Assembly (NCBI GenBank): GCA_017408025.1
Contig: JAFQVJ010000024.1
Span: 1 to 42,280 of the forward strand
DNA length: 42,280 bases
DNA from: Lachnospiraceae bacterium
Lineage (GTDB): Bacteria; Bacillota; Clostridia; Lachnospirales; Lachnospiraceae
Direction: 5' to 3'
Part shown: positions 8,838 to 39,340 of the stretch, one piece after another
Layout of the letters: the number at the start of each line of letters is the position of its first letter
Position numbering within the stretch: the first letter of the stretch is position 1
The notes under the pieces: generated by a model
Database searches by the model: none
What the model was told of the DNA's origin: nothing
The model's input: only the letters and a program-made list of their open reading frames with translations
Translations under genes and position numbers: made by a program

Positions 8838-8870
8838 CGTTCATTCCTCCATGTATTTTTTGTATTTGTG

Positions 8871-9009
8871 AGCCGAGCACGGTCAGCTTCAGCTGACATC
8901 TTCTTTTCGTGCGAGTGCTCAAAAAATCGTAGTTGCAAAGCAACTGCGATTAATTCCTTTGCGGAGCATTTTTATTGTATAGGAAAGATCCCTGAACTTT
9001 CCTATACAA
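8871..9009 (+). repeat. Dispersed intergenic repeat, copy A
   Basis: About 139 bp. Modules in order: GGTCAGC...GCTGACATC dyad, GTGCGAGTGCTC, AGTTGC-AAA-GCAACT dyad, GCGGAGCATTTTT, then the end hairpin TTGTATAGGAAAG...AACTTTCCTATACAA. It matches copy D (opposite strand) over nearly its full length by eye and copies B and C in part. The hairpin end abuts the T-tract of the leader terminator at 9018-9044. It fills most of the space between that terminator and speA. Confidence 0.85.
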
Positions 9010-9017
9010 CAAAAAAA

Positions 9018-9044
9018 GTAGCGTACTTAATTTAAATACGCTAC
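9018..9044 (-). terminator. Intrinsic terminator of the speA leader
   Basis: GTAGCGTA...TACGCTAC stem (9037-9044 with 9018-9025) followed on the minus strand by seven T (9011-9017). It sits 5' of speA, so it would attenuate the operon or end a separate small RNA. Confidence 0.85.
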
Positions 9045-9430
9045 ATGCAAAATCAATCAAAATAACAACTAATAATTAGCATAAATATATTTTCATCACA
9101 AGAAAACATAAGTGCAAATAATATGTATGATAATTCAGAGTCTATATAGCAATCATCACTTTTACTACTCTTATTGACTGTTTCACAAGTAAGCGCATCC
9201 GCGCTATTCGGTTTATGAGAAACCAACTGGTTTATTTATAATAAGAAACCAACTTATAAAATAATCGGCAGTGGACCCGGCTGTCCGTATGGCCTTAACT
9301 CTTTCGAGTGGTCCCAGTATAATTGTTATAAGAAAAACTCTGAACTGACTAATTTAGTCCTTTTCAATATGTAACCTTGAGCAAAATCATTTCATGACCT
9401 TGCTCAAGGTTTTCTTCGCTTTCTTAAACT
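9018..9430 (-). ncRNA. Candidate structured leader RNA of the polyamine operon
   Basis: A transcript starting near 9430 from the promoter at 9437-9465 and ending at the terminator 9018-9044 would be about 410 nt. In order on the minus strand it holds a 12-bp-arm hairpin (9400-9411 with 9373-9384), a three-way junction closed by GGACC/GGTCC (9310-9314 with 9273-9277) that contains ACTC-GAAA-GAGT, a GNRA-capped helix, and a GGC...GCC helix, then AGAAACCAACT twice (9244-9254 and 9218-9228, plus-strand reading), a GC hairpin AGCGC-GGAT-GCGCT (9192-9205) and the terminator. I see no convincing protein frame. T-box, SAM, lysine, guanidine, FMN, TPP and cobalamin signatures are absent. It could be a riboswitch or attenuator for speA, or a free-standing sRNA. 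Confidence 0.55.
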
Positions 9431-20929: not shown

Positions 20930-21099
20930 TTGTATAGGGAAGTCGAAGAACTTTCCTATACAATAAAAAAGAATCTTGCTTGCAAGATTCTCCGCCTACG
21001 GCGGGTCGCTTTAGCGACATCTTCCTATTCGCCGTAGTGCGATCCTTAGCGGAGCGTTTTTTGTTTAATAGGGAAGTTTGAAGAACTTTCCTATTAAAT
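20930..21099 (+). repeat. Dispersed intergenic repeat, copy B (composite)
   Basis: Two end-type hairpins bracket a core: TTGTATAGGGAAGT...AACTTTCCTATACAA (20930-20963) and TTTAATAGGGAAGTT...AACTTTCCTATTAAA (21064-21098). Between them are the palindrome GAATCTTGCTTGCAAGATTC, then GGTCGCTTTAGCGACATCTTC and TTAGCGGAGCGTTTTTT, modules shared with copies A and D. The second hairpin abuts the riboswitch terminator. Confidence 0.8.
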
Positions 21100-21105
21100 A
21101 AAAAA

Positions 21106-21146
21106 GAGACCTTTTGCATACACTAAAAGTGTATGCAAAAAGTCTC
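21106..21146 (-). terminator. Expression-platform terminator of the Mn riboswitch
   Basis: GAGAC-t-TTTTGCATACACT stem, loop, complementary arm and GGTCTC, followed by TTTTTT on the minus strand. Its 5' arm includes the aptamer end, allowing switching. Confidence 0.92.
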
Positions 21147-21240
21147 GTTCAACCTTAGGTTACTTAGCATCCGGTCTGATTCTTCAGACGTACTGACGAA
21201 TACTAAGACATGTACAAGTACATGCAACTACTCCCTCTTC
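21106..21240 (-). ncRNA. yybP-ykoY manganese riboswitch
   Basis: On the minus strand the aptamer carries the conserved L1 segment GAGGGAGTAG (21229-21238), a long P2 dyad (GCATGTAC/GTACATG), the P4-type hairpin TCTGA-AGAA-TCAGA followed by CCGGATGCTAAG, and the closing AACGAGACTTTTTG. This matches the L1/L3 manganese-binding layout of the class. The expression platform is a 40-nt intrinsic terminator that shares the end of the aptamer. Known members respond to Mn2+ by preventing termination and often control manganese exporters, as the ATPase downstream would be. Confidence 0.92.
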
Positions 21241-28087: not shown

Positions 28088-28175
28088 ATCGTAGTTGTAA
28101 AACACCTCGATTAACCAGGTCTTAGCAGAACGTTTTTATCATATAAGAAAGTTCTTCCAACTTTCCTATATGATA
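28088..28175 (+). repeat. Dispersed intergenic repeat, copy C (degenerate)
   Basis: AATCGTAGTTGTAAAAC, CGATTAACCAGG, TTAGCAGAACGTTTTTAT and end hairpin ATCATATAAGAAAGTT...AACTTTCCTATATGAT (28138-28174), in the module order of copy A but with more changes. The hairpin abuts the mcp terminator. Confidence 0.7.
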
Positions 28176-28179
28176 AAAA

Positions 28180-28217
28180 CCCTTGGAAACATTAAAGTTT
28201 CCAAGGGTTTTTTTTTT
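28180..28217. terminator. Bidirectional terminator after the chemoreceptor gene
   Basis: CCCTTGGAAAC...GTTTCCAAGGG (28180-28207). Ten T follow on the plus strand and TTTTT on the minus strand, where it ends the mcp transcript. Confidence 0.85.
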
Positions 28218-39150: not shown

Positions 39151-39195
39151 ACAAGAACTAATGGTAGTTGCTATGCAACTACCATTAGTTCTTGT
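39151..39195 (+). terminator. Perfect 21-bp-arm hairpin after the GH25 gene
   Basis: Arms 39151-39171 and 39175-39195 are exact complements around TAT, centred on GTAGTTGC/GCAACTAC. The U-tract is weak (CTTGT), then copy D of the dispersed repeat starts at once. Probably the GH25 terminator. Confidence 0.65.
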
Positions 39196-39340
39196 ATAGG
39201 AAAGTTCTAAAAAATTTCCTATACAACAAAAGCGCTCCGCGAGAAATTAACCGCAGTTGCTATGCAACTACAACTTTTTGAACACTCGCATGAAAAGTAG
39301 ATGCCAGCTGAAACTGACCGTTCTCAACTCGCAAAGCGAA
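39192..39340 (-). repeat. Dispersed intergenic repeat, copy D
   Basis: Minus-strand reading matches copy A nearly throughout: GGTCAGTTTCAGCTGGCATC, TGCGAGTGTTCAAAAA, GTAGTTGC-ATA-GCAACT, GCGGAGCG and end hairpin with AACTTTCCTATACAA. Its hairpin end abuts the GH25 terminator hairpin. Confidence 0.85.

Follow-up and report, generated by a model that had tools for sequence, protein, structure and literature searches.

A small repeat of Lachnospiraceae, inserted behind intrinsic terminators, appears to choose its sites by the same rule as IS200

The window analysed here is a 42,280-nucleotide stretch of DNA from a Lachnospiraceae bacterium (contig JAFQVJ010000024.1 of assembly GCA_017408025.1), and it houses four copies of a structured repeat, in the leaders of speA and of an ATPase gene and 3' of mcp and GH25 genes (Table 1). 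The copies were located where an earlier note on this DNA had placed them, at 8871-9009, 20930-21099, 28088-28175 and 39192-39340; that observation is real, and larger in extent than noted. The ordered modules that the note ascribed to all four are indeed shared by copies 1 and 4 (C hairpin, core, B and A), but not every module is present in every copy: copy 2 departs in having C, core, the alternative middle E and a second C hairpin, and copy 3 has a decayed C, a core-like box and a remnant of B. The fixed polarity towards the terminator holds for all four, in the order stem, T-run, C hairpin, A-run and core. As to the host structures, the proposed Mn riboswitch at about 21106-21240 was unconfirmed by Rfam, the leader being nonetheless conserved in one congener; and the GH25 hairpin does abut copy 4 with its stem, but the supposed terminator is itself a B-type hairpin. 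With up to 3 mismatches allowed, the window contains 12 occurrences of the 15-mer AACTTTCCTATACAA, compared to a mean of 2.73 in shuffled sequence, where none of 100 shuffles reached 12. The speA leader also contains, at 9265-9314, a match well above the gathering score to RF02440 (SpF59/ldcC RNA, described from Streptococcus).

Table 1. The four copies in the window, their parts, and the host structures that they abut
Feature	Position	Strand	Remarks
Copy 1, in speA leader, right end truncated (no D/RE hairpin)	8867..9017	-	T-run 9011-9017
Copy 1, host terminator stem (speA leader attenuator)	9018..9044	-	From sequence; same stem without element in G004/G007
Copy 1, C hairpin (left-end palindrome)	8975..9009	-	
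Copy 1, GCTCCGC core box (GCGGAGC on +)	8961..8967	-	
Copy 1, B module, ATCGCAGTTGC..GCAACTACGAT dyad	8926..8951	-	
Copy 1, A module, GAGCACTCGCACGA..GTCAGC..GCTGAC..GTGCTCGGCTC	8867..8921	-	
Copy 2	20930..21105	-	C hairpin 21062-21099, core 21049-21055, T-run 21100-21105
Copy 2, middle E and second C hairpin		-	Right hairpin of middle E 20971-20990; second C hairpin 20930-20963
Copy 2, host terminator stem, ATPase leader	21106..21146	-	Leader kept in G002 with a different insert
Copy 3, decayed	28088..28179	-	C hairpin 28139-28173, GTTCTGC core-like box 28125-28131, B remnant 28088-28113
Copy 3, host terminator stem, 3' of mcp gene	28180..28207	-	Gene name from the earlier note
B-type hairpin 3' of GH25 gene, abutted by copy 4	39156..39190	+	Gene name from the earlier note
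Copy 4	39191..39340	+	C hairpin 39192-39226, GCGCTCCGC core 39232-39240, B 39250-39277, A 39279-39335

Read from the terminator side, the host stem and its T-run are followed by the palindromic C hairpin, an A-run and a core, GCTCCGC..AGGATG, 3' of which lie a stem with an apical hairpin, a terminator-like right hairpin and a T-rich tail. The arms of the C hairpin are ATTGTATAGGAAAGTTC..GAACTTTCCTATACAAT or GTTTAATAGG..CCTATTAAAC; after the A-run comes CGCTCCGCTAAGGA, and then one of two alternative middles, either A-D (TGAGCACTCGCACGA..GTCAGC..GCTGAC..GTGCTCGGCTC, then CCCTCATGAATGAGGG..AAGTGGACTTGTCCACTTTGTT) or E (CTACGGCGG..GTCGC..GCGAC..CCGCCGTAG, then GAATCTTGCAAGCAAGATTC-TTTTTT). The extra dyad B is optional and stands between the core and the A module. 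The element is about 50-340 bp long and lacks tnpA, and many copies are incomplete. An A-run of 4-7 is present in 65 of 71 copies, and the hairpin just 3' of it is weak (CGC-TCC-GCG, often only 2-3 bp). The tail seen most often, TTTGTT, recurs at the right end of the IS200 copy in locus L329.

An alignment was made from 37 of 82 pattern matches (full length and dereplicated, one dropped by hand). In 13 of its 28 predicted pairs both partners have changed in at least one sequence, and these paired changes are borne by the C hairpin and the right hairpin (columns 26-60, for example, read AU 13, UA 12, GC 8 and CG 1), so that both terminal palindromes have been kept as palindromes while their letters changed. 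The central box is almost invariant across the 37 copies, partly since the search pattern required it: the pattern fixes about 22 alignment columns, and conservation in these is to that extent by construction. The alignment and fold of the 37 copies revealed palindromes near both ends and no terminal inverted repeats; the two ends differ, unlike those of a classical MITE of the DDE type.

The possibility that the A-run arises as an inverted copy of the host T-run was mostly rejected, because few deviant letters in the T-run are mirrored in the A-run of the same copy. In the own genome these amounted to 2 of 10 at position 7, 1 of 6 at position 8 and 0 of 3 at position 9 (shuffle means 0.18, 0.08 and 0.10, respectively), while inside the palindrome mirrored changes are common (13 of 22 at position 4). 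The A-run is therefore mostly a fixed part of the element, which is compatible with a role as guide and is no proof of pairing.

The search of the full genome and of relatives that the earlier note had proposed revealed a large family. Copy 1 alone gave 108 blast pieces in the 2.35-Mb genome (best 40 candidates scored), and three queries combined (copy 1, a long copy and copy 2) gave at least 73 clusters, or at least 74 once the decayed copy 3, missed by all three, is added; this is a lower bound, because for each query the best 40 of 156-182 candidates were scored. Searching 41 genomes (the own genome and 40 relatives) with element DNA gave matches in 15, all in the own family. The pattern GCTCCGCN{1,3}AGGATGMGCACTCGC matched at least 118 stretches, and the titles of those listed are mostly of Lachnospiraceae or presumed Lachnospiraceae genera; they include Butyrivibrio, Roseburia, Agathobacter, Herbinix, Eubacterium oxidoreducens, Clostridium fessum and Eisenbergiella, which we take to belong to Lachnospiraceae. 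A covariance model built from the 37 copies, with the best 10 candidates scored per genome, matched at least 30 of 295 genomes of the order. Four of these, from one genus of another family (g75, f24; G072, G104, G114 and G133), had ten matches each, and three further families had single or double weak matches. The repeat thus ranges across Lachnospiraceae and into at least one further family of the order, and by eye the parts follow the same order in the inspected loci of relatives, L365 not being covered. A Lachnospiraceae-type element was also seen on two contigs labelled Anaerolineaceae MAG4 (L106 and L148), through either mis-binning or transfer. Twelve draft contigs of G006 terminate within an element (C9, C11, C14, C19, C21, C27, C29, C30, C42, C58, C59 and C65), which suggests that short-read assembly tends to break at these repeats. 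The scanned copies matched no Rfam family even at a relaxed threshold, which returned sub-threshold chance matches only, RF02440 aside, and no paper among those listed by literature searches names the repeat. This is, then, a high-copy repeat family, unmatched in Rfam and located where RNA polymerase stops.

When distance and polarity to terminators were tabulated, as the earlier note had also suggested, a terminator-like stem was found to abut the T-run in 55 of 68 own copies and in 60 of the 71 family copies (out of 82 matches) with enough left flank, the element lying 3' of this short T-rich site and oriented the same way. Among other T-runs in these loci the same scorer accepted 109 of 1674, and among intergenic ones 26 of 160. 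Two clusters, C16:28413 and C3:26990, and the window copy at 28088 were oriented by hand for this count. Inspection shows several of the misses to be terminators with a long loop or with mismatches; others, among them C37:4788 and L146, have no clear stem. The left flanks have median folding energies of -14.6 kcal/mol (family, 69 flanks) and -11.95 kcal/mol (own, 68 flanks, including three clusters in the wrong orientation), as against -4.9 and -4.2 kcal/mol after shuffling. The upstream open reading frame is on the same strand in 60 of 71 clusters, on the opposite strand in eight, and was not found in three, the three re-oriented clusters being left out. The neighbouring genes are diverse, and one copy lies between a SAM riboswitch and metK. 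A second C left arm begins no more than 20 nt from the element's own right end in 21 of 74 clusters (of which C23:2134 is probably a chance match), and 8 of 12 second C hairpins stand behind a stem and T-run. Other structured repeats were also seen at congener terminators (L219, L222, L224 (G006, G002), L302, L317 and L325), among them repeats bracketed by TGAGCC..GGCGAA, and TTTTTGTATGATATGGGGTTC.. behind the speA terminator, and terminators may therefore be common landing sites for several element families.

Comparison with congeners showed that sites may be filled or empty. The speA terminator occupied by copy 1 is, by eye, present without any insert in G004 and G007, and in G006 and G002 has other structured inserts behind it. 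Around 12 conserved genes beside own elements, in seven congeners, an element was detected in 5 of 62 orthologous regions (tested out of 84 possible gene-by-congener pairs, some of them differing in neighbour or terminator), namely at metK in G001, G003 (decayed) and G006 (C hairpin only), at rny in G001 and at thrS in G003 (decayed); by eye, metK of G004 also has a remnant and thrS of G005 may have one. The copies were therefore inserted. In the congener empty sites, divergence blurs the junctions at the level of single bases. These presence/absence data and the adjacency counts support the small, non-autonomous, terminator-choosing element that the earlier note had suspected. Neither of the findings that the note had named as contrary, a majority of copies away from terminators or constant presence at orthologous sites, was seen in the sampled data. 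The thrS leader contains what we take, by eye and from its motif, to be a T-box, with no Rfam match at the gathering threshold.

The same site rule holds for the IS200 copies that were read. Eight IS200-type loci from six Lachnospiraceae genomes, recognised by KWxCKYHxVF (L031, L327, L328, L329, L332, L333, L343 and L353; three of them from the element-free genome G012), all lie behind a terminator-like stem. With copies from Tetragenococcus and Smac51, 10 of 10 score 13 or more, against 27 of 300 pseudo-sites. E. coli-type IS200 was sampled at 10 of 10,533 IS200C places and two plasmid sites. All 11 readable copies (at yfeY, ydcL, kdsA, yiaA, uhpT, mukB, potE and fbaB, on two plasmids and behind another IS200) stand behind a terminator-like stem, with scores of 14-18 (threshold 9), whereas 44 of 600 pseudo-sites in E. 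coli loci reach 14; the decayed copy L389, on which the parser failed, was left unscored, its left side reading as stem-like sequence, T-run and IS200 start. The scorer is laxer than the element test, accepting any T-run of at least 2 within a distance of 8-26 nt (E. coli) or 90 nt (others) from the left hairpin, and the pseudo-sites are its control. In two loci, L329 and L353, the left end contains a hairpin that scores as well, the terminator stem being further out, at -79 and -65. Eight loci of other TnpA subtypes (PF01797; L326, L330, L331, L344-L347 and L354) were read outside the scored set, and L377, a decayed IS200 of Lachnospira eligens, has no terminator. Alleles without IS200 at kdsA, yiaA and potE have the bare terminator, and in the filled kdsA allele IS200 is flanked by T's on either side.

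TnpA of the own genome shares 57% identity with the E. coli IS200C transposase, and its IS200 (L031:195-1184, on contig C45) has a c-di-GMP-I riboswitch on each side and follows immediately on the terminator of the first. In E. coli a tandem IS200C (L384) has its second copy right behind the RE hairpin of the first, as elements do. The Smac51 copy (L375) lies between 12-base direct repeats (TTTCACGCTTTA), which is unusual for a family described as non-duplicating. At the left end of IS200, T-run, palindrome, A-run and LE hairpin follow one another (TTTTTTGTGCACAGAAAA-CCCCCAGC in E. coli, TTTTTTTGTATACACATACAATAAAA-CCACCTGC in the own copy), a series that occupies the position of the cleavage site and guide of IS608. 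According to extracts of published accounts, the IS608 guide lies 5' of the LE hairpin base and pairs with the target (PMC5934647); a stem-loop of IS200 has been interpreted as a Rho-independent terminator that guards against read-through (PMC2515195); convergent genes have more IS200 between them than expected (PMC9208149); and insertion of the related IStrons follows T-rich pentanucleotides and leaves no target duplication (PMC4227781). A terminator rule for IS200 was not found in the extracts searched, ISfinder and most subscription papers lying outside their scope.

The shared site rule and the series T-run, palindrome, A-run lead us to read the element as an IS200-like single-strand transposon without an enzyme of its own. 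It is probable that it is a non-autonomous element of the HUH, Y1-type kind, inserting immediately 3' of intrinsic-terminator T-tracts; mismatched ends, genomes in which no Y1 was detected and an enrichment that comes post hoc from one panel hold our confidence at that level. Membership of IS200/IS605 is not established, because the end sequences do not match, and we do not claim it: in the ends examined (eight left ends, and right ends from three of the eight loci), comparison gave only pieces of 13-25 nt with E about 0.01, and none shared with an autonomous Y1 element. The search for a parent likewise found no matching ends among these IS200 ends, and no copy above about 350 bp with an open reading frame among the copies read. 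L332 and L333, where an element lies right behind an IS200-type copy, were considered as parents and are read as insertions behind the right hairpin of the IS. Y1_Tnp was detected in 20 of 24 element-bearing and 6 of 15 element-free genomes (both panels, Fisher p 0.013, post hoc; G043 and G200, which give identical places, count as one). By panel the counts are 8 of 9 versus 1 of 8, the element-free genomes here being defined by the covariance model with the best 10 candidates per genome, and 13 of 16 versus 5 of 7, which is no association.

That another recombinase, for example of IS110 type or a lost enzyme, moves the element, and that the resemblance to IS200 is convergent, is unlikely. It would fit the failure to find a parent with matching ends and the four of 24 element-bearing genomes, all drafts or MAGs, in which Y1_Tnp was not found (G002, G042, G049 and G104), but the left-end layout and site rule held in common with IS200 would then be coincidence, and the IS110 DEDD transposase (E up to 0.001), rejected as partner, shows no association (8 of 15 element-bearing versus 6 of 8 element-free genomes).

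A retroelement resembling a group IIC intron or a SINE, whose antisense RNA ends in the A-run and is primed by the nicked terminator T-run, is more doubtful still. Group IIC introns, the precedent offered by the earlier note, do insert at the same class of target (extracts of PMC3240598), and the A-run is complementary to the T-run. Such an element should have a fixed left end and truncated right ends, and 23 of 74 clusters retain the left C hairpin without the right end, as 5' truncation would give, but these were counted by motif matching and the excess is biased, because the queries contained the C hairpin. There is no Rfam intron match, and reverse transcriptases (PF00078), also rejected as partner, are no commoner in element-bearing genomes (10 of 16 versus 5 of 8 element-free) and were not found in the element-rich G104, G114, G292, G041 and G049, so that the target class stands as a parallel and the intron mechanism is unlikely.

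A structured RNA or second terminator that benefits the host and has spread by gene conversion would suit the strong compensatory changes in both terminal hairpins, the terminator-like right end and the broad taxonomic range, but is very improbable for copies that are truncated, nested and modular, detected at so few orthologous places, set beside such diverse genes and, in one case, lodged between the SAM riboswitch and metK.

In the IS200-like single-strand reading, the left end would be laid out as in IS200, with the target T-run as cleavage site, then the palindrome, then the A-run in the guide position. The A-run would pair with a terminator's T-tract once this is single-stranded, and the element would therefore be joined behind the T's in one fixed polarity, presumably leaving no target duplication. 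The transposase would act in trans, IS200-type TnpA being the candidate. Since the right end offers a terminator-like hairpin and a T-rich tail, an inserted copy would itself be a new target, giving head-to-tail arrays. It is tempting to suggest, more tentatively, that IS200-type transposition in general uses intrinsic terminators as a safe harbour, the T-tract being single-stranded next to its hairpin and pairing with the transposon A-run, and that the Lachnospiraceae element is a rider exploiting them, each copy a landing site. If so, tens of terminators in each genome are occupied by the rider (at least 74 here), those of riboswitches and attenuators in leaders among them, and IS200 has a testable target rule that would explain how it avoids genes. 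The rule predicts that insertions will separate regulatory terminators from their genes, as at metK.

Among known systems, group IIC introns share with the element their insertion downstream of intrinsic terminators, as extracts of PMC3240598 describe. The element differs in being smaller than about 350 bp and in having no ribozyme or reverse transcriptase, no Rfam match and no associated reverse transcriptase. Pneumococcal BOX elements are of modular build. Like the element, they are high-copy intergenic repeats with extensive secondary structure that have been read as parasitic; the extracts of PMC3049150 do not mention a terminator rule, and the comparison is by description, not sequence. 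REP/BIME repeats with RAYT transposases are likewise palindromic, non-autonomous and tied to Y1-type enzymes, in the extracts available, and the element is set apart from them, by description, by its greater length, two different ends and T-tract target; REP/BIME carry GTAG/CGTC tags, according to a title in the literature, and terms for Firmicutes are absent from extracts of a published account of these tags. IS200 is a closer precedent than group IIC introns. The element differs from it in having no tnpA, a length of only about 50-340 bp, a larger palindrome at the left end, at least 74 clusters in one genome and no end-sequence similarity in the eight left ends and three of eight right ends compared; it shares with IS200 the insertion in one polarity behind a terminator stem and T-tract, the left end of T-run, palindrome and A-run, hairpins at both ends, and tandem copies behind its own right end.
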